Source of the DNA: Venturia oleaginea
Lineage: Eukaryota; Ascomycota; Dothideomycetes; Venturiales; Venturiaceae
Direction of reading: 5' to 3'
Length of the DNA: 64,000 nucleotides
Assembly: GCA_013176395.1 (NCBI GenBank)
Contig: JABMLP010000030.1
Span: 310,001-374,000 of the forward strand
Position 1 is the stretch's first letter. Each line of letters starts with the position of its first letter. The notes below the pieces were generated by a model. It did no database searches. It saw nothing but the letters and a program-made list of their open reading frames with translations, and had not been told where the DNA came from. A program made the position numbers and the translations under genes. Of this stretch, positions 8,958-54,664 are shown piece after piece.

Positions 8958-9113
8958 GGTGAGATGGCCGAGCGGTCTAAGTAAGTTTATATTCCACACT
9001 GAATCCGACTAGACAACCTCTAACAATATTCCAGGGCGCTAGGTTAAGGTCGCAACCTTAGCATTAAATTCCTAGTGGAGAAATCCTCGTGGGTTCAAAT
9101 CCCACTCTCATCA
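8958..9113 (+). tRNA. tRNA-Leu(AAG) with a canonical intron plus a spliceosomal-like D-arm insertion
   Basis: Acceptor strand GGTGAGA (8958-8964) pairs with TCTCATC (9106-9112), discriminator A 9113. The D stem is GCC/GGC, the anticodon stem CTAGG (9039-9043)/CCTAG (9071-9075), the loop TT-AAG-G…T with anticodon AAG at 9046-9048 (Leu, CTT/CTC). A long variable arm, as expected for a type II tRNA, follows, then T stem GTGGG/CCCAC around TTCAAAT. A box (TGGCCGAGCGGTC) and B box (GGTTCAAATCC) are intact. Two insertions interrupt it. The first is the ordinary 20-nt intron 9050-9069 after position 37, containing ACCTTA that can pair with the anticodon region. The second is a 54-nt insertion, 8981-9034, exactly between the D loop and the 3' D-stem strand. 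Removing both leaves a textbook tRNA-Leu. Whether the D-arm piece is spliced, and hence whether the gene works, is unknown. Confidence 0.88.
8981..9034 (+). other. Spliceosomal-type intron-like insertion inside the tRNA D arm
   Basis: Starts GTAAGT, ends CCAG, and has CTCTAAC (branch-like CTAAC at 9020-9024) about 11 nt before the AG. Length 54 nt matches protein-gene introns of this window (47-62 nt in most). Excision restores D stem GCC/GGC with no extra or missing base. I see no bulge-helix-bulge-like pairing of its ends that would suit tRNA endonuclease. Confidence 0.7.
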
Positions 9114-9116
9114 GCC

Positions 9117-9121
9117 TTTTT
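9117..9121 (+). terminator. RNA polymerase III terminator of tRNA-Leu
   Basis: TTTTT beginning three bases past the discriminator base; it also lies in the loop of a short AGCC/GGCT hairpin. Confidence 0.8.
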
Positions 9122-13279: not shown

Positions 13280-16200
13280 ATGTCTCAACTACCAATCGGA
13301 GCATTCCAAGCGAGCAGTCCTACACCAGCAGGCCCGGCAGTCCCAAGGAAGTTCCAACCGAAAGGGAAAGAAATTGAGCTATTACAAGAGGAGAAGCCAG
13401 AAGAAGAACCAATACCTCTATTTACGGAGATCGCACAAGATACTGGAATACCAATCAATATCCTAAAGAAGCACCTCAATCTACACAATTGGTGGGCAGA
13501 TATCAACCCAGAAACGGAACCAGAGGAGGCAAACTTGACAACTTACCTTGTACGAAACTATATCGACGTAAAGCGGGCAGGAATTACAAAGAGGAATCTA
13601 CTCGGAGAGCTGCGCGATGTTTTCTACGGATGGACAAATTATCAGTTTGGACAGATTAACAAACGTTTCATACGAATGTTGATTCAACTCTGTCAAGACA
13701 GGCAAATTACAGTCCGAGATGAGCCCGGCTGTACGGCTGCAAACCAGATGATGTATGTACTTGGGGACTCCATTCCACCAACACCCCGTATTGAGGAGAG
13801 TTTGGTGGAACAGCAGAGCCCAACTACAGACGAATCTGTTAGGCTACGGCTACCGACAATAGAACATCCAGTTCGCGCAAAGCAGGAGTTGGTAGGAGAA
13901 ACCCTATCAGGACTCTCCGTTCGACAGAAAGGAACTCTCTCTCCAGTGGTGGAAATGCCGAGATTTCAACCCCAGATTGAGGAGAGAACTCAATCCCAGA
14001 GACCTGAGAACGCAGTACGGCAACCTCAACACCAAACCCAACGTCCTCAATCCTCTTGGCCTACTGGCATACAACAGAAGAATTGGGAAAGAGGCCGTAC
14101 GAAGGAACTATCTCAATTTCAACTACCGACGCAACAGCAGCAGCAGCCTCCCCAAGGTTGGTTTGTACAACCACAAGGAGGAGGAACCAGTGGAGGAGAA
14201 GGAAATGGCGGAGGGGGACTACCAGGCCTACCATTAGGTTCTGGTAGCTTTGCACAAGGTCCCCCAGACCCATTAGGAGGAGGATACAATTCTCAAGGCG
14301 GAGGATATTCAGGTGGAGGGGATGGAGGCTCGTACGGAGGACCAGGAGCACTACCAGCAGGATTACCAGCAGGACCGCCAAGACCACCAGGACCGGATCC
14401 GTACGAACTTCCCCCTACAAGATGGATCCCAAATGCCTTTATCGACCCTCGTGCGATCGCTGCTTTCTCAAAAATATGGAAAAAGGAGAGATGCTACACC
14501 GGTGAGCCGTACGACATTCTACAGGAGAAGGTGAAGCTGTTTATCACTCTCTGCAGGCGACTCCAGATCTATGAGAACCAGTACCATGCTGTCTTCCCCG
14601 ACATTCTTACCGGACGTGCAGAGACATTTTACCTTGACCATATTGGACCAGATATGAGATGGGACCAGATCTATCGTGCGATGTATAACAAATTCAATAC
14701 CAGCCAAAATCACGCAATCTACTACGCAGATTGGACAACAACCTCGTTCGCACGAACAAGATCTGAGAACCCTGATAAGCCACTTCCCGAAGTGCTCCAG
14801 ATTATGCTAGATAAGCTCCAACTTGTCCAACGCGCAATGGGAGAACCGTACAAAGGCGAGATACACCTCAGTACAGCTGTTACCAAGGCATGCAAAGGCG
14901 TACGAGAGCTGGAATCCGCATTCCTACGCCCAAGCACATCGTGCGAGAACTTGTTTGCAGAGCTCCGGTCCGCCCTTCAACTCTATATAGATCGGAAATC
15001 TACAAAGCAATTCTTTACAAGAGAAGGGCAACCCCAGCTACCACGGCCCTCGCACGAAGCAGATCAATTCTTCAATGACAGGAGATTCCGAGATAACAGT
15101 AAGCGAGGAACACCTACTCCGTCGTACAACAGAGGCCAGCAACAATGGCAGCCAAGAATAGATCCCCCGCATGAGGCGAATTCGGGACAGCAATCTTATC
15201 AACAACCATGGCAGAGATCCAAGAAACCATGGCAACCTAAGCCATTTGCTCGCACGGGAGGGAAAGGTTGCTGGATCTGCAACAAACCAGAATGCCGTTC
15301 CTGGAAACATACACCTGAGGAGCAAGCTCGCACGAAGAAGCAGTTCTTTACGGCAGTAGATGAAGCTGACATGGAACTCCCAAATGACGAGGAAATCCGA
15401 CAATTCATAGTCTCGTACGAAGGTACCTATGAACAGTTCCTAGCTTCCCAGGACGAGGAAGAAGACAAGGGACAACAAGTGGTTTCCTACCTAACCACCG
15501 CTGCATTCTACCACCGTACAACAGGAGAGGATATCTACGGCCAGGGAGAACCGTCAGTACGTGCGGAACAGTTTATCCTTGAAAGCAAATATGCCAAAGC
15601 ATACCAAGGTGAACTTTGGGACACAGGCGCCGCACGAGTCTCTACAGTTGGGAAATGTCAGGTTGAAGCATACCTCCGAGAGTTCCCTCGTACGAAGATT
15701 GATTGGACACCTGGTAGTGCCCATATCTCGTTTGGAAGTGGACCACCTACTGCGGCAATTGGTACGATAGAAATGGAGAACCCTCTTGGCAAGATCACCT
15801 ACCACATCTTGGAGACAGACACTCCATTCCTCTTCTGCTTGGACGAAGGAGACAGGCTGAAAGCCTACTTCAACAATGTTAACAACACTATCGTACGAAA
15901 AGATGGATCTACAATCCCAGTCGTGCGAAAATGGGGACATCCTTTCTTCAATCTCAGCCAAAGAGAAGCCACATCATTCCTAACTGAGACTGAACTTAGG
16001 AGAGTCCACAAGAGATTTGGCCACCCTCGTACAGAACGCCTACACACTCTCCTCAAGCAAGCTGGCTATACGAATGTTGAAGAGTCCGTGCTAGAACAGA
16101 TCCGGAAGGTGTGCCATCAATGTCAATCGCACGACCAGGCCCCAAGAAGATTCAAGTTCTCCATCCAGGATAACTGCGAGTTCAACTACGAAATTATTAT

Positions 16201-18754
16201 CGATGTAATGTACCTCGGTGGTAAGCCAGTTCTCCATGTGATTGATGCAGCTACGTCTTTCCAGGCAGCTACCTTCCTGAAATCGATGTCTGCACGAGAT
16301 ACCTGGGATGCTCTCTGCAAATGCTGGATCTATGTCTACCAAGGACCCCCAGACAACATTATACACGATCCAGGAACCAACTTTGCGTCCGAAGAATTCA
16401 GGAACTTTGCACGAATTGTTGGAACCTCGTGCGAAGAAATGCCTGTTGAAGCCCATCATGCTATAGGGAAGATTGAGAGACAACATGGACCGCTAAGGAG
16501 GGCGTACAACATCCTTTTAGAGGAGATTGGCCATCGTACGGACAAAGAAATAATCCTCCAGATGGCAATCAAAGCTCTCAATGATACAGCAGGACCGAAT
16601 GGCATTGTTCCAACACTTCTTGTATTTGGAGCATATCCCAGAATCAACCAGGACTCACCACCATCTCAAGACATTGTCGCACGAGCTGAAGCAGTTCAAA
16701 AGGCTATGAAGGAGATCAGAAATATTCGCGCAAAGGTTGAAGTTAACCGCGCAATCAATGCACGCAATGGACCAATGCTTCACCATATCCTCACCCTTCC
16801 ATTGAGAAGTAAGGTAATGGTTTGGAGAGAGAAGAAAGGCTGGCGAGGCCCATACAAGATCGACGCCTTTGAAGGTAACAACGTGATACTTGCCCTTCCA
16901 AATGGACCAACGCAATTTCGTGCGACCCAAGTCAAGCCTTACTTTGAGGACATACTGGAAACACCTCCAGAGCCATCGTACGATAGCCCTAACGAGCTAG
17001 ACTCACCACCAGGAAGCCCTCAACACCAAGAAGAAGCCCGTACAAATTCAATCCAAACCCAGCGCAGGAGCGGGAGATCAAACCAAGGCCAACTCCCTGG
17101 GTACCTGGAGGAAAGCATTGTCTACCTTTCTAAGAAGGAACAGGATGACCTTGCGCTTGCCGTACAACTAAGGCAAGACGGGATTATTACAACACCAGGT
17201 CCCCCATTCCAGGAATTAGATCTCAGCGAAGTTGATAACCTTATCAACCAAGATGTCTTTGAAATCATCTTGTACGATGAAAAGAAGCATGGGAAAGGAG
17301 AGATCTTTGGTACAAGGTTTGTCCATGAGGTAAAAGGAAAAGGGATCGCACCGTATGAGAAGTCAAGACTTGTCGTACAAGGATTTGGAGACAAAGGAAA
17401 GGAAGAAATCCTTACCCAATCGCCAACAATCCAAAGGATGAGCCAGAGATTCCTTCTTGCAATTGGACCTACCTTGATTTCCTACTTCAACGCCCAAGGA
17501 GAACTGCGAGATATTACCCAAGCTTACACCCAATCAAAGGACGAACTGGAGCGAAAGATCTTCGCACGACTCCCAAAGGAAATGAAACTTTTCTTTCCAA
17601 AAGGAACCCTCTTTCTCATCAAGAGACCCTTGTACGGATTGGCTGAATCAGGACTCTACTGGTTCAAAACCTACCACTCCCATCATGTTAAGAACCTGCA
17701 AATGAAAATCTCATCGTACGATCCATGCCTCCTTCACACAAACTCAGGACCTCAAGACTTTGGAATTACAGGACTTCAAACGGACGATACTTTCAGCTTT
17801 GCTACCCCAGAGTTCTCCCGGCGGGAAGAGGAAGAACTAAGCAGAGCAACTTTTCGTGCGAAAGGAAAGACAATTCTTGCAGAGGATCAACCTATTGAAT
17901 TCAATGGAGGGAGGATCCGCATAGAAGGACCTGATATTCTCTTTGAACAGAAAAACCAATCCGACCGACTTGAGTTAATTAACCCTCGCGCGAAGGATGC
18001 ACAGCAGAGGTACGTCGAGCAACGTGCGAGAGGTGTATATATTGCTTCAACATGCCAACCCGAAGCATCGTACGACCTCTCTGTTGCAGCACAAATCAAG
18101 GAACCAACAGAGAAGGATATTGAGAAACTGAACACACGAATCCAGTGGCAGATGGACAACAAAAGACGAGGACTCAGATTCATCCCACTAGACTTCGCAC
18201 GAGCAAAGCTGTACGCATTCACAGATGGATCATTTGCAAACAACCAAGATCTTAGCTCCCAGCTAGGTTTCCTTATTGTTCTCGCTGAAGAGGTCTATTG
18301 TACAGAAACTGAATTTGAGATCCAAGGCAACATTATCCACTGGAGCTCAACTAAATGCAAGAGAGTCACTCGAAGCGTGCTGGGAAGCGAATTGTACGGA
18401 ATGACAACAGGATTTGACAACGCTATCGCTATTAGTACGACCCTCCAACAGGTTACAGCATCCCTCGGGCTCGCACGAATTCCCCTTGTCCTCTGCTCAG
18501 ACTCTAAGTCGTTGTACGACTGCCTTGTAAAGCTCGGAACAACAACTGAGAAACGCCTCATGATTGATATTATGTCAATTCGAGAGTCGTACGAGAACAG
18601 GGAGATTTCCCAAATCCGCCGAATCAATGGGAAGGACAACCCAAGTGATGCCTTTACAAAAGGAAGCCCTAACGCTGCACTAGAGAAACTGATCTCTACC
18701 AACAAGCTTACAGTGCAAATGGAAGCTTTTGTTGATAGATATGAGGATCTGTAG
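13280..18754 (+). CDS. Copia gag-pol polyprotein, intact
   Basis: One uninterrupted frame of 1824 residues. In order: a gag region with Gln-rich and Gly-rich stretches (about 230-370); a zinc-knuckle-like CWICNKPECRSWKH (C-X2-C-X4-C-X4-H) near 663; aspartic protease active site LWDTGAARV near 780; an integrase zinc region, RVHKRFGHPRTERLH then CHQC, near 908-945; an integrase core with IIIDVMYL (Asp about 974), IHDPGTNF (about 1029) and KIERQHGPL (Glu about 1065); an SH3-like segment WRGPYKIDAFEGNNVILALP; RVT_2-type reverse transcriptase (about 1320-1520) with RPLYGLAESGLYWF and QTDDT in place of the usual YVDD; and RNase H with FTDGSFAN, SELYG and CSDSKSLYDCL. The QTDD variant keeps both catalytic Asp. 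The nucleotide sequence is studded with CGYRCG motifs. Start chosen as the first ATG of the open frame. Confidence 0.95.
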   Translation: MSQLPIGAFQASSPTPAGPAVPRKFQPKGKEIELLQEEKPEEEPIPLFTEIAQDTGIPINILKKHLNLHNWWADINPETEPEEANLTTYLVRNYIDVKRAGITKRNLLGELRDVFYGWTNYQFGQINKRFIRMLIQLCQDRQITVRDEPGCTAANQMMYVLGDSIPPTPRIEESLVEQQSPTTDESVRLRLPTIEHPVRAKQELVGETLSGLSVRQKGTLSPVVEMPRFQPQIEERTQSQRPENAVRQPQHQTQRPQSSWPTGIQQKNWERGRTKELSQFQLPTQQQQQPPQGWFVQPQGGGTSGGEGNGGGGLPGLPLGSGSFAQGPPDPLGGGYNSQGGGYSGGGDGGSYGGPGALPAGLPAGPPRPPGPDPYELPPTRWIPNAFIDPRAIAAFSKIWKKERCYTGEPYDILQEKVKLFITLCRRLQIYENQYHAVFPDILTGRAETFYLDHIGPDMRWDQIYRAMYNKFNTSQNHAIYYADWTTTSFARTRSENPDKPLPEVLQIMLDKLQLVQRAMGEPYKGEIHLSTAVTKACKGVRELESAFLRPSTSCENLFAELRSALQLYIDRKSTKQFFTREGQPQLPRPSHEADQFFNDRRFRDNSKRGTPTPSYNRGQQQWQPRIDPPHEANSGQQSYQQPWQRSKKPWQPKPFARTGGKGCWICNKPECRSWKHTPEEQARTKKQFFTAVDEADMELPNDEEIRQFIVSYEGTYEQFLASQDEEEDKGQQVVSYLTTAAFYHRTTGEDIYGQGEPSVRAEQFILESKYAKAYQGELWDTGAARVSTVGKCQVEAYLREFPRTKIDWTPGSAHISFGSGPPTAAIGTIEMENPLGKITYHILETDTPFLFCLDEGDRLKAYFNNVNNTIVRKDGSTIPVVRKWGHPFFNLSQREATSFLTETELRRVHKRFGHPRTERLHTLLKQAGYTNVEESVLEQIRKVCHQCQSHDQAPRRFKFSIQDNCEFNYEIIIDVMYLGGKPVLHVIDAATSFQAATFLKSMSARDTWDALCKCWIYVYQGPPDNIIHDPGTNFASEEFRNFARIVGTSCEEMPVEAHHAIGKIERQHGPLRRAYNILLEEIGHRTDKEIILQMAIKALNDTAGPNGIVPTLLVFGAYPRINQDSPPSQDIVARAEAVQKAMKEIRNIRAKVEVNRAINARNGPMLHHILTLPLRSKVMVWREKKGWRGPYKIDAFEGNNVILALPNGPTQFRATQVKPYFEDILETPPEPSYDSPNELDSPPGSPQHQEEARTNSIQTQRRSGRSNQGQLPGYLEESIVYLSKKEQDDLALAVQLRQDGIITTPGPPFQELDLSEVDNLINQDVFEIILYDEKKHGKGEIFGTRFVHEVKGKGIAPYEKSRLVVQGFGDKGKEEILTQSPTIQRMSQRFLLAIGPTLISYFNAQGELRDITQAYTQSKDELERKIFARLPKEMKLFFPKGTLFLIKRPLYGLAESGLYWFKTYHSHHVKNLQMKISSYDPCLLHTNSGPQDFGITGLQTDDTFSFATPEFSRREEEELSRATFRAKGKTILAEDQPIEFNGGRIRIEGPDILFEQKNQSDRLELINPRAKDAQQRYVEQRARGVYIASTCQPEASYDLSVAAQIKEPTEKDIEKLNTRIQWQMDNKRRGLRFIPLDFARAKLYAFTDGSFANNQDLSSQLGFLIVLAEEVYCTETEFEIQGNIIHWSSTKCKRVTRSVLGSELYGMTTGFDNAIAISTTLQQVTASLGLARIPLVLCSDSKSLYDCLVKLGTTTEKRLMIDIMSIRESYENREISQIRRINGKDNPSDAFTKGSPNAALEKLISTNKLTVQMEAFVDRYEDL

Positions 18755-46934: not shown

Positions 46935-49900
46935 ATGGATCTCAAGACCTGGATCTCCGACACTCTCATCGACAAGTTTGGTGGATCCGACCCTGCCATT
47001 GTTGACTATGTACTTGCCACGGCATCTGGCCGCAATACCTCGAGCGAGCTGGTGGGCAAGCTCTCTTCTATACTCGACGGCTCCTCCGCTGATTTGCAAG
47101 ACTTCGCCGATGGGCTTTTGAAGCGTACCGGACGAGGTCCGACAGAGAAGAAAAATGCTCCAGTTCCTAAGGCGGAAAAGAAGAGGTATGCCATGGTTTC
47201 TATGGACGAAGAGCAAGACGTCTCACAAGCCCAGCAACCTCCTCTACCAAACAACGGCGAAAGCAAACGACGGAAAGAAAAGAGCAGGAAGAAGGAAGAT
47301 AAACACAAGGATCGCAGGAAATCGCGGGCGTCAAAAGGCGATTTTGAGGACAGATGGGGAAGTCAGTCGGAAGAATCCGAAGAGGAGCAACAGGAAGAAG
47401 CTCCGAAGAAGCGGAGGCGCGTCGATTATTCGCCTACAGCTAGCGACTCGGATGAGAGCGACCGCAAGGAATTCGAGCGCAAGCTGAAAGCCAAGGATAA
47501 TCGTGATAGAGATGATTGTGATGATCGTGGTGATCGTGACAGAAGGCGTGAGCGGAAGGGTATAACTCCTCCCCCACAGCGCGACATGGGCAGCATTCGA
47601 GAGAAATCACGGCAGGAATATCTTCGAAAGCGTGAAGCTGAGAAGGTTGCTTTGCTGGCAAAGCAGGTTGAAGAGGAAGATGATGAGCTCCAGAACAATC
47701 CCATGCTCACGGAAAGGGAGATTCGGGAGTTCACAAAGAACAAGGAACTGCTTCGAATCGCCCAGAATCGACTACTTGCGCGAGATGCGGAGGAGGATCG
47801 TGATACCTTTTTCATGCCCGGCGAGGGTGATGTCAGCAAATCGGATGTCCTAAACAGGCGTGTGAAGGAACGCGAGGGTGTCACCGATTTGCAATTGTGG
47901 GAAGAAGAACAAACGAGACGAGCGACTGCTACCGCAGGACTGCGCAAAACGCGAGTCGACGAGGCCGATTACGAGTTTGTTTTTGATGAAAGCCAGAAGC
48001 TTGACTTCATCAGCGGCGGTACCATCGCAAGTACCATGAGCCGAGAGATGCTTCTGTTTCAACAAGAAATCGACAAGGCTAAAAAGGCAGAGGCAACACT
48101 TCAGGAGAAGCGGAAAGAACTGCCCATGTACTCAATGCGAACAGAGCTTCTGGACGCACTGAAAGAGCATCAGAACCTCATCGTTTCATCCGAGACTGGA
48201 TCCGGTAAAACTACTCAGATTCCTCAGTATATCTTGGAAGAAAACCTAAACAACGACCTGATGATTGGTGTCACTCAGCCTCGTCGAGTAGCCGCCATGT
48301 CTGTGGCAGCTCGTGTGGCCGAAGAGCGAGGCGCACGGCTGGGCGGAGAGGTTGGATACAGTGTGCGTTTCGAGCACAAAGTTTCGGAAAAGACTAAGAT
48401 CAAGTTCATGACAGATGGTATGCTGTTGCGTGAACTGGTCTCAGACCCGACATTGAGTGCATACAGCGTCATTATGCTTGACGAGGCCCACGAACGCACC
48501 CTCGACACCGATATGTTGCTCGCCTTCTTGAAAGATTTGAGCAGAGCCAGGCCTGATCTCAAGATCATTATCAGTTCCGCCACCATGAACTCGGCCAAAT
48601 TTGCCACTTTCTTGGATGACTGCCCCATCTTCCACGTTCCTGGCAGAACGCATCCTGTCGAGAAGATGTTCTCGGCGCAGCCTGAAGCGAATTATCTGCA
48701 CGCAGCAATCACTACCGTCTTCCAAATTCACATCTCGCAACCAATCGGTGGAGATATTCTCATCTTTTTGACAGGTCAAGAGGACATCGAAATGGGTGTA
48801 GAACAGATTGAAGATACAATGAAGAAGCTAGGCAACAGAGTGAAGCCTCTTATCGTGACGCCCATCTACTCCACTTTGCCGTCCGAAATGCAGGCGAAGA
48901 TTTTCGAGCCAACATCGGAAGGATCCCGAAAGGTCGTCTTGGCTACCAACATTGCCGAGACTTCTCTTACAATCGACGGCATCAAATATGTCATTGATAC
49001 CGGATTGGCAAAGGAGAATGTTTTCAACCCAGCTACAGGAACTTCTTCCCTTCAAACGACACCCATCTCTCGTGCCTCTGCCGAGCAACGTGCTGGCCGA
49101 GCAGGACGTGTTGGTCCTGGAATATCCCTTCGCCTGTACACAAAATACAATTACTACCAGGAGCTTCAAGAGGAACCCATACCCGAGATTCAACGCAGCG
49201 ATCTTACATCGGCAGTACTCTTCCTGAAGACCATCGGCGTCGGCAACATCATCGACTTTGATTTCCTCGATGCGCCTTCACCAGAAGCTCTTATCAAATC
49301 GCTTGAACTACTTTACATGCTCGGGGCGCTTAACTCTCAAGGCGCTGTCACTCGTTTGGGACGACAGATGGTTGAGATACCGTCTCATCCCCGGCTTGCT
49401 GGCGCCCTTATTGCATCCCACAAATACGGCTGTGTCCAAGAAATTCTCACAGTTGTGGCTATGCTGGATGAAGCAGCTAATCTGTTCTTTCGTCCCAAAG
49501 ATCAGAAAGTGCATGCCGACTCTGCACGACAACGCTTCACGCACAAGGAAGGCGGTGATCATCTCACTCTTCTCAATGTGTACAACGCTTGGAAGGATAC
49601 CGAATACTCCATTCCTTGGTGCAAGGAAAACTTTGTGCAATACAGGAGTTTGCAGCGAGCGAGACTTGTCAGGGAGCAGCTCGAGGCACTTTGCGACAGA
49701 GTGGAGATACCCAACGACTCTTCAGTGGGCGCAAATGATTACGTGCCGATCTTAAAGGCTCTCCTCGCTGGCTTCTTCTCCAATACTGCCACATTGACCA
49801 GAGATGGCCAACATTACAGGACTCTGCGCACAAACATGACAGTGCGCATACATCCCTCCTCAGTACTGGCGGCCCAGGACCAAACATATAAGCCGAAGGT

Positions 49901-50099
49901 GGTGGTTTTCCATGAGTTGGTCATTACCAGTGGAGACTGGATGAGAGGGTGTGCGCCCATCGAGGCGGAATGGTTGGGAGAGGTCGCACCACACTTCTGG
50001 AAGACGTCAGAGCTGGAGAAGATTACTGCTAGTAAAAAGAAGTTACCCAAGGGACAAGGTGCACCGGCTATCGAGGCTTCGAGGGGCATCAAGGTGTGA
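46935..50099 (+). CDS. prp2: DEAH-box pre-mRNA splicing helicase Prp2/DHX16
   Basis: Spliceosomal ATPase that remodels the activated (Bact) spliceosome before the first splicing step. Intronless, 1054 residues, typical for the family. N-terminal helical domain (LKTWISDTLIDKFGGSDPAI), then a highly charged linker (KRRKEKSRKKEDKHKDRRKS) and REIREFTKNKELLRIAQNRL. Helicase motifs: I GSGKTTQ (about residue 422), Ia TQPRRVAAMS, II DEAH in MLDEAHERTLDTD (about 516), III SSATMN, IV FLTGQEDIE, V TNIAETSLTIDGI, and VI QRAGRAGRVGPG (about 720). After that come the winged-helix/ratchet and OB-fold regions, ending GIKV. The N-terminal arrangement and overall length fit Prp2/DHX16 rather than Prp16, Prp22 (which carries an S1 domain) or Prp43 (shorter). 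No defects seen. Confidence 0.95.
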   Translation: MDLKTWISDTLIDKFGGSDPAIVDYVLATASGRNTSSELVGKLSSILDGSSADLQDFADGLLKRTGRGPTEKKNAPVPKAEKKRYAMVSMDEEQDVSQAQQPPLPNNGESKRRKEKSRKKEDKHKDRRKSRASKGDFEDRWGSQSEESEEEQQEEAPKKRRRVDYSPTASDSDESDRKEFERKLKAKDNRDRDDCDDRGDRDRRRERKGITPPPQRDMGSIREKSRQEYLRKREAEKVALLAKQVEEEDDELQNNPMLTEREIREFTKNKELLRIAQNRLLARDAEEDRDTFFMPGEGDVSKSDVLNRRVKEREGVTDLQLWEEEQTRRATATAGLRKTRVDEADYEFVFDESQKLDFISGGTIASTMSREMLLFQQEIDKAKKAEATLQEKRKELPMYSMRTELLDALKEHQNLIVSSETGSGKTTQIPQYILEENLNNDLMIGVTQPRRVAAMSVAARVAEERGARLGGEVGYSVRFEHKVSEKTKIKFMTDGMLLRELVSDPTLSAYSVIMLDEAHERTLDTDMLLAFLKDLSRARPDLKIIISSATMNSAKFATFLDDCPIFHVPGRTHPVEKMFSAQPEANYLHAAITTVFQIHISQPIGGDILIFLTGQEDIEMGVEQIEDTMKKLGNRVKPLIVTPIYSTLPSEMQAKIFEPTSEGSRKVVLATNIAETSLTIDGIKYVIDTGLAKENVFNPATGTSSLQTTPISRASAEQRAGRAGRVGPGISLRLYTKYNYYQELQEEPIPEIQRSDLTSAVLFLKTIGVGNIIDFDFLDAPSPEALIKSLELLYMLGALNSQGAVTRLGRQMVEIPSHPRLAGALIASHKYGCVQEILTVVAMLDEAANLFFRPKDQKVHADSARQRFTHKEGGDHLTLLNVYNAWKDTEYSIPWCKENFVQYRSLQRARLVREQLEALCDRVEIPNDSSVGANDYVPILKALLAGFFSNTATLTRDGQHYRTLRTNMTVRIHPSSVLAAQDQTYKPKVVVFHELVITSGDWMRGCAPIEAEWLGEVAPHFWKTSELEKITASKKKLPKGQGAPAIEASRGIKV

Positions 50100-53482: not shown

Positions 53483-54664
53483 TCATCTACCACTCCCATG
53501 TCCCTCAACCTCAGCCCAAGCCCTGCAAAAGATGTCTCCTCTCCATCCCCAACAAACGGCGTAATGCCTACCAAGCAACATCCACTCCTCCATCTCGTCC
53601 AGCATCTCACATTCTCCTACCCTGTCCTTCTCTTCCTGATCCAGCCATTTCTGATATAGCCATTCGACATCAGCACCTTTTTGACCGCCAACCAAGCTGG
53701 CGTCTGCCAGGCGTGTCCGCTGAGCACTCAGTGAGTGGTATTTGTGGAGTGTTTGAAGAACGATACCCCGCTGAGCGAGGTTCGAGACCATTACTTGGCC
53801 GAAGGAGTCGTGCGGGTGTATTGGTTCATAGAGGACGAGGGATAGGGGTGTGGTAGGTGAGATGATGTGATTTGTAAGGGTTTGAAGAATAGCATCAGCC
53901 TGTGTTGGTGGGAGATATATGAGGCAGCATTCCGATAGAAGAAGTGTCGGAGTGGTGGGGGATAGATTCGGTAGCTTTGGCAAGAAGGCAGGGTCGTTTG
54001 TGGCTAAGGTGCGCAGGTCGAGAGGGTGAAGGTTGTAGGTTGGCGAGAACAGGGAATCGCCATTGCTAGAGATGCGAAGGGAGTCGGTGTTGTCAGGTCC
54101 AAGGTGGGTGTGTATGGCTTTGAGAAGGGATGGCGTTCGTTTGATAGACGAAATCTTTGAGGTCGTGTTTGTTGCAAAGTCGAGCTCGTGGTAAGTCAGT
54201 CTGATGTCAGGATTTGCAGTGACAATCCGAAAGTATCGTGTGTCTGAGCCAGCGCCTAACGATATGATCTGCTTTGGAGAGTTAGGATCCGTGGAGATGA
54301 AGGCATTGACGAGGCGGTCGATTGCGGTGGTGCGAATATATGTTCCTGGCGGAGTCAGTATAGCTTCCAGTCAGTCGAAGAAGCTCTTCATACCTCTGTT
54401 GATGATAGGATACCGTCTTGGGATTGGTCCTTGCAAGAATGCCTGAGCAAAGGAATCATCGAGATATCCCAGTGACACGGCGCTCATTCGGGAGGCTGAA
54501 GCATCGTTGTCTGTTTGCTGGACGATTCTGTCCTTGCGCGTCTCTGCGTCTTCCTGCGTCCTTCCATGGCCAAGTGAACTCGGTCCTCCCCTTCTTCTAG
54601 CACCGCCAGTGCCTCTCAGAGACAGAAGATTCGGAATTTCCTTTGCTGGCCGTTGTTGAGCCAT
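53483..54664 (-). CDS. ppm1: Leucine carboxyl methyltransferase Ppm1/LCMT1
   Basis: Cytosolic SAM-dependent enzyme that methylates the C-terminal Leu carboxylate of the PP2A catalytic subunit, controlling assembly of B-subunit holoenzymes. Exons (minus strand) 54664-54394 and 54345-53483 with a 48-bp intron give 377 residues, the normal size. An N-terminal Arg/Gly-rich extension precedes [23 protein letters not shown] start-of-fold sequence (here [13 protein letters not shown]), [10 protein letters not shown] across the intron to TYIRTTAID, the SAM-binding [13 protein letters not shown] (about residue 120), and [18 protein letters not shown], the second family signature; the C-terminus has [15 protein letters not shown]. 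All key motifs are intact. Its start lies 156 bp from that of the Rpb5 gene on the opposite strand. Confidence 0.94.

Follow-up and report, generated by a model that had tools for sequence, protein, structure and literature searches.

Can a nuclear tRNA gene carry an intron of the kind that the spliceosome removes from mRNA precursors, and would such a gene still be functional? This question is raised by a tRNA-Leu(AAG) gene in the window, i.e., the whole 64,000-nucleotide stretch of Venturia oleaginea DNA analyzed here. The original prediction had placed in its D arm a 54-nt insertion (8981–9034) with GTAAGT, CTAAC, and CAG signals, in addition to the usual anticodon-loop intron. Reading of the sequence confirmed these coordinates and gave the following gene structure (all features on the + strand):

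8958–9113, +: tRNA-Leu(AAG) gene, three exons and two introns of differing type (sequence read; ARAGORN)
8958–8980, +: exon 1, acceptor 5′ strand, D-stem 5′ strand, and D loop (sequence read)
8965–8975, +: A box TGGCCGAGCGG, left unbroken by the insert (consensus match)
8981–9034, +: spliceosomal-type intron, 54 nt, at the boundary of D loop and D-stem 3′ strand (sequence read)
8981–8986, +: 5′ splice site GTAAGT, the commonest start (9 of 39 inserts; sequence read)
9020–9024, +: CTAAC, branch-site-like, with 9023 as the branch A (sequence read)
9032–9034, +: 3′ splice site CAG (sequence read)
9035–9049, +: exon 2, D-stem 3′ strand through position 37, with anticodon AAG at 9046–9048 (sequence; ARAGORN)
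9050–9069, +: ordinary 20-nt tRNA intron at position 37/38, endonuclease type, non-GT-AG (sequence; ARAGORN)
9070–9113, +: exon 3, anticodon-stem 3′ strand, long variable arm, T arm, and acceptor 3′ strand (sequence; ARAGORN)
9092–9102, +: B box GGTTCAAATCC, intact (consensus match)
9117–9121, +: TTTTT, Pol III terminator-like, 3 nt beyond the gene end (sequence read)

The acceptor stem pairs GGTGAGA (8958–8964) with TCTCATC (9106–9112), followed by the discriminator A at 9113. The insert lies at about position 22/23 in standard numbering (21/22 in our script labels), just 5′ of the D-stem 3′ strand, and its branch-like A is 11 nt upstream of the last G. The claim that a tRNA-Leu remains once this insert and the 20-nt intron are taken out was borne out by ARAGORN, which called Leu(aag) with a 20-nt intron, i(39,20), in the spliced gene and nothing in the unspliced one; both internal promoter boxes, likewise predicted, match their consensus. 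When the window was scanned with ARAGORN and with Rfam at the gathering score, no tRNA was reported. One half-tRNA model (R2) matched the T arm of the Leu(AAG) gene, and another (R1) gave a single match in the window, at 54108, which proved to be no tRNA on reading.

The string composed of the exon and the 5′ splice site occurred once in the window at ≤3 mismatches and never in 100 shuffles, and a scan of viral contigs for the exon–intron string of the window gave 0 matches. Across the genome, a 24-nt string (exon 1 plus the next G) was identical at 6 loci. In the intron-free Leu(CAA) gene L112, the same exon ends are joined where the window gene has its 54-nt insert.

Insert-bearing tRNA genes across the genome

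The original prediction concerned a single gene, but the phenomenon itself is genome-wide. In the 46.08-Mb assembly (61 contigs, the window being C24:310001-374000), we found 85 nuclear tRNA loci, 31 with GT-AG-type inserts and 54 without; these loci represent a sample drawn with chosen tRNA-arm patterns and the Rfam tRNA model, each locus then being read, and not a full census. The 31 genes contain 39 inserts, which interrupt the D arm, anticodon stem, variable loop, or T arm. Two GT-AG inserts are present in 8 genes, among which 6 Leu genes add an ordinary intron as a third. Insert positions, numbered by hand in the standard scheme, are 9/10, 15/16, 18/19, 22/23, 29/30, 46/47 to 47/48, 50/51 to 53/54, 57/58, and 59/60 (the rougher script labels for 22/23 and 29/30 being 21/22 and 30/31), and none of the 39 inserts sits at 37/38, the position of canonical introns.

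For seven anticodons, every copy found carries an insert: Leu-AAG (5/5), Leu-CAG (2/2), Trp-CCA (3/3), Arg-TCT (2/2), Arg-CCG (2/2), Gly-CCC (1/1), and Pro-AGG (1/1). Copies with and without inserts coexist for Leu-CAA (2/3 with insert), Leu-TAG (1/2), Ser-AGA (3/5), Ser-GCT (4/5), Ser-TGA (1/2), Ser-CGA (1/2), and Arg-TCG (2/3), and inserts are absent from Phe (0/5), Lys-CTT (0/4), Met (0/7), Thr (0/6), Ala (0/8), Asn (0/3), and other genes. One further insert-bearing locus (L136/L146) is of uncertain, Ile-like isotype; its Ile(TAT) label is a guess, and ARAGORN says Lys. Some isotypes were missed by all searches of this incomplete census, e.g., Tyr, Cys, Glu, Gln(CTG), Val(AAC), Arg(ACG), and Lys(TTT).

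Isotypes were read by eye from the anticodon arm. ARAGORN, run on the 31 genes after splicing, gave the same amino acid in 29 cases, the disagreements being the Ile-like locus and Trp gene C5, called Gly when spliced and Trp when unspliced. Among the 54 insert-free loci, ARAGORN called a tRNA in 53 (exception L117), with the anticodon misplaced in several because of ordinary introns. Such 37/38 introns are common: ARAGORN placed 52 of them in the 85 loci, for example in Lys, Phe, Ala, Thr, Gln, His, and Pro genes.

The Rfam tRNA model was a useful seed when run on the genome, and a lossy one, missing most split genes and several intact ones (e.g., L112, L113, L120, and L124). A DNA search in an insensitive mode, with one Ala and one Pro tRNA sequence as queries, returned no match, though both genes exist. 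A T-arm-intron pattern was not enriched (42 matches vs 58 in the control); its matches include 3 known genes and 20 examined loci that yielded 2 new tRNA genes (L103 and L106). None of 17 further loci examined is a tRNA. One string, GTCTCTAGGTTAAGG, marks near-identical DNA at five places (L147–L151).

Left out of all counts were matches on the mitochondrial contig C38, a pair on C58, loci L024 and L025, and pattern matches that are not tRNAs. The C58 pair (G000:C58:10061-10132 on the + strand and 16942-17013 on the − strand) consists of identical tRNA-like matches with identical flanks, inverted on one contig, and looks organellar or plasmid-like. L024 (C19:646319-646392, at a contig end) and L025 (C60:820814-820887) are identical weak tRNA-like loci with identical flanks, unlike other nuclear tRNAs.

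Splice signals, junctions, and exon constraint

Of the 39 inserts, 38 start with GT and all end with AG (CAG in 17, TAG in 16, AAG in 6), with GTAAGT (9), GTAAGA (5), and GTATGT (5) among the 5′ ends and a median length of 53 nt (range 47–89). A CTRAY motif with its A 8–24 nt from the insert end, mostly 10–12 nt, was detected in 33 of the 39, compared to 4.7 on average and at most 13 in 1000 dinucleotide shuffles; 4 of the 6 inserts without it have TTAAT. After exclusion of 5 doubtful genes, the counts were 34/34 for GT, 34/34 for AG, and 28/34 for CTRAY. An AG lies between the branch motif and the 3′ splice site in 10 of the 33 inserts, in some cases far enough downstream to compete. The ordinary 37/38 introns as placed by ARAGORN served as a negative control: they showed GT..AG in 0 of 52 and CTRAY in 3 of 52 cases, and since these introns come from the same loci, the motifs belong to the inserts. 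A control scan for mRNA introns returned 38 candidates vs 27 in reversed DNA, a set too impure to compare; for V. carpophila MAT1-2, the available part of PMC5712196 lists two predicted introns of 54 and 48 bp.

The sole non-GT start is found in L129 (G000:C12:1294699-1295069), an Arg(CCG)-like gene in which the T-loop insert reads ATAAGT...CAG and keeps CTGAC. This is either an AT-AG insert or a decaying splice site.

We compared junctions with intron-free sisters of the same anticodon, available for 14 insert-bearing genes and 7 anticodons. All 18 inserts in these genes are GT-AG at a junction not chosen by motif, and the 24-base exon stretch spanning the junction equals that of the sister in 10 of the 18 cases and agrees at 19 to 23 of 24 positions in the other 8. 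In one such pair, the Ser(AGA) genes on C20 and C59, the exons are identical throughout (81/81). For genes without an intron-free sister, junctions were set by hand with the motif in view; across all 39 inserts there are only 109 equivalent junction placements, of which chance would make ~0.4 GT-AG if all four bases were equally frequent.

Removal of the inserts restores recognizable tRNAs. ARAGORN found a tRNA in all 31 spliced genes (expected amino acid in 29) and in 8 of the 31 unspliced ones (expected amino acid in 4), and 367 of 372 acceptor and T-stem pairs are kept after removal (one leading base of Trp gene C8 being trimmed for this count). Among genes whose insert lies at position 45 or beyond, 17 different T stems occur with their pairs kept, hence both strands change together, though the insert separates them in most T-arm cases. 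Judging from these pairings, exons of the insert-bearing genes are under constraint. A single acceptor or T-stem pair is broken in each of five genes (the Leu-CAA gene on C4, L116, L089, Trp C8, and the Ile-like locus), and some of these genes may be decaying.

Probable mode of transcription and insert removal

With its splice-site and branch motifs, intron-free sisters, restored cloverleafs, and recurrence in 31 genes, the spliceosomal-type intron first proposed for the window gene is strongly supported by sequence. We consider it very likely that the inserts are removed by the spliceosome and likely, as a complete reading, that they are real U2-type introns in nuclear tRNA genes excised from Pol III pre-tRNAs. 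RNA polymerase III would produce a pre-tRNA containing the GT-AG intron(s), which the major spliceosome would cut out in the nucleus through the two-step lariat reaction. The D and T arms would thereby be restored and end processing become possible, after which tRNA endonuclease and ligase would take out the ordinary 37/38 intron. The spliceosome is expected to act first, because the folded tRNA body is what RNase P, RNase Z, and tRNA endonuclease read.

If the spliceosome does remove the inserts, its substrate is quite likely a Pol III transcript. A T4+ run occurs ≤60 nt downstream of 28 of the 31 genes (L103, one of the three without, has a flank covered for only 25 nt), the unspliced genes match the A-box consensus in 26 of 31 cases, with the A box upstream of every insert except those at 9/10, 15/16, and 18/19, and 24 of 31 have an uninterrupted B box (21 by regex plus 3 Trp genes by eye, in which it starts with C). 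Inserts at 50/51 to 53/54 mostly spare the B box, since their terminal AG is followed by the exon sequence GTTCRA. Taken together, T4+ runs, A boxes, and contiguous B boxes fit Pol III, and what marks a functional tRNA gene, i.e., a cloverleaf after removal, Pol III boxes, and a terminator, was found in these counts over the 31 genes. T4+ runs are also sparser inside inserts (1.4 per kb) than in the window (3.7 per kb); however, the 3 runs observed vs 5.0 expected were matched by values as low in 218 of 1000 dinucleotide shuffles, and T-run avoidance is therefore no more than a hint of Pol III transcription, a lower P having come from mononucleotide shuffles.

Alternatively, the same introns could be spliced out of RNA polymerase II transcripts, produced by read-through or from a Pol II promoter, before the tRNA is excised. 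Pol II transcripts are the normal substrates of the spliceosome, and 7 inserts, at 57/58 and 59/60, split the B box (L114, L118, L089, L033, L088, L132, and L129), which should weaken Pol III recruitment. Each of these 7 genes has a same-anticodon copy with a contiguous B box, and the terminator and promoter-box counts above speak against a Pol II origin, as does the precedent of Pol III-transcribed U6 snRNA genes with spliceosomal introns, leaving Pol II transcripts as an unlikely source. One of the split genes is a Leu(AAG) copy (L033; G000:C60, near 649646), and within its B-box-splitting T-loop insert lies a B-box-like string, AAGTTCGAATGC.

tRNA-Trp(CCA) is the sole reader of UGG, and CUU and CUC are read by Leu(AAG). 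A Trp(CCA) D-arm pattern gave 21 matches, all read, among which 3 Trp loci, and an independent T-loop-plus-acceptor pattern matched the same 3 loci only; all 3 have their insert in the variable loop. A Leu anticodon-arm pattern gave 57 matches (control 109), and the 47 read yielded 7 tRNA genes, 5 of them Leu(AAG); the 10 unread matches are copies of one repeat string. A 5′-exon pattern recovered 4 of the 5 Leu(AAG) loci and no additional Leu(AAG). Overall, within the pattern mismatch limits of this incomplete census, no intron-free copy was found for Trp(CCA), Leu(AAG), Leu(CAG), Arg(TCT), Arg(CCG), Gly(CCC), or Pro(AGG). Since all found Trp(CCA) and Leu(AAG) copies carry inserts, these inserts must be removed. 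As an example of codon use, an uninterrupted PRP2/DHX16-like ORF in the window has 8 TGG, 25 CTT, and 20 CTC codons.

Among the 57 Leu-pattern matches, 16 (L034, L035, L040, L042, L053, L058, and others) contain GGCGCTAGGCTATGG, with near-identical surroundings in the six examined. This string is a dispersed repeat family.

These counts bear on the possibility that insert-bearing genes are dead copies beside good ones, an option also raised in the original prediction for the window gene. Intron-free sisters exist for 7 anticodons, one pair is broken in each of 5 spliced genes, and, in the available text of PMC4090602, eukaryotic D- and T-arm insertions are supposed to be pseudogenes. Against this stand the 7 anticodons for which the incomplete census held no intron-free copy, with inserts in every found Leu(AAG) and Trp(CCA) gene, as well as the retention of 367 of 372 pairs and of T runs after 28 of 31 genes; GT-AG borders would not be expected of dead insertions either. 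Pseudogenes are thus an improbable explanation, more so than Pol II transcripts.

Excision by tRNA splicing endonuclease at bulge-helix-bulge (BHB) motifs, in the manner of archaea and Cyanidioschyzon, is very unlikely: archaeal non-canonical introns do occur at similar places (22/23, 29/30, 53/54, and 59/60) and even three to a gene, according to the portion of PMC4090602 available, but BHB-like pairing was found in 1 of the 39 inserts, at chance level (mean 1.5 in shuffled inserts), and this mode of removal leaves unexplained the GT-AG and branch motifs, both of which the ordinary introns of the same loci lack. The suggestion of a recent introner-like element, i.e., a single mobile intron family copied into tRNA genes, concerns the origin of the inserts and not their function, and it found equally little support: the inserts are many, of one size, and in few places, but comparison of the 39 with one another gave no match at E ≤ 0.01, and in the tRNA-locus DNA compared they had just 16–27-nt matches beyond their own locus (E 0.003–0.009).

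In the Leu copies the exons are nearly the same, but no similarity was detected between the introns, suggesting that the latter are old or were gained independently. Some places are shared, such as 22/23 in Leu and 52/53 in Ser, which would point to inheritance before gene duplication or to preferred entry sites.

Returning to spliceosomal introns, the pattern of inserts and anticodons suggests that, in this Venturia lineage, essential tRNAs (Trp, Leu-AAG, and others) probably came to depend on the spliceosome for their maturation. U2-type introns would have entered the D and T arms of dozens of Pol III genes, some pre-tRNAs would pass through two unrelated splicing machineries one after the other, and the supply of tRNA would be coupled to spliceosome activity.

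Relation to known introns and neighboring features

U2-type introns of fungal mRNAs are GT..AG introns of about 50 nt with CTRAY near the 3′ end, and most of the Venturia inserts appear to fit this description. The inserts differ by residing in tRNA genes, with internal Pol III promoters, no reading frame, and very short exons (23 nt before the window insert). Spliceosomal introns in stable RNA genes are known from the fission yeast U6 snRNA, a Pol III transcript, and from ascomycete 18S rDNA; PMC11782384 lists Rogers 1993 among its references. The likeness is an mRNA-type intron in a stable RNA, in U6 also one made by Pol III, whereas in Venturia such inserts involve dozens of genes and several isotypes, with up to two per gene and often an endonuclease-type intron in addition. 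Canonical nuclear tRNA introns, which likewise interrupt nuclear tRNA genes, differ from the inserts in their single position (37/38) and in having no sequence-defined borders of this type (GT..AG in 0 of 52).

Non-canonical tRNA introns of archaea, nucleomorphs, and Cyanidioschyzon merolae resemble the inserts in occupying D-arm, anticodon-stem, and T-arm sites and in occurring several to a gene, as described in the accessible parts of PMC4090602 and PMC3978253. In those same parts, the archaeal and C. merolae introns rest on BHB motifs, unlike the Venturia inserts, the tRNA introns of the Guillardia nucleomorph measure 3–24 nt and are left unexplained, and none of these introns is termed GT-AG or spliceosomal. 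PMC4090602 counts C. merolae among the exceptions, with the term “spliceosom” absent from its accessible text, and PMC3978253, as far as available, describes the C. merolae tRNA introns. The tRNAscan-SE 2.0 paper (PMC8450103) handles noncanonical introns for archaea and does not contain “spliceosomal”, and the V. carpophila genome report used tRNAscan-SE 1.23 and listed 132 RNA genes (PMC5712196, in the part available). In the review PMC13149111, again from the text available, tRNA splicing is treated as spliceosome-independent, and the portions available of PMC11782384, PMC12730881, and PMC10161547 include no case of spliceosomal tRNA introns. Overall, our searches of the open-licence literature returned no case of a nuclear tRNA gene with a spliceosomal intron.

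The Venturia inserts contrast with the picture in reviews: they look like work for the spliceosome only, in several anticodons for which no intron-free copy was found. They make testable the action of the spliceosome on Pol III transcripts at scale, as well as intron gain in non-coding genes and the reasons for which tRNA finders miss genes, with ARAGORN seeing 8 of the 31 when unspliced. Genomes of this kind may hold more tRNA genes than have been counted.

Elsewhere in the window, the PRP2/DHX16-like ORF (46935–50099) matches a Venturia inaequalis protein at 96% identity along its full length, the next matches being an unnamed protein (76%) and one from Trichodelitschia (70%). An 1824-aa ORF at 13280–18754 on the + strand reads, by eye, like a Ty1/copia-type retrotransposon polyprotein.
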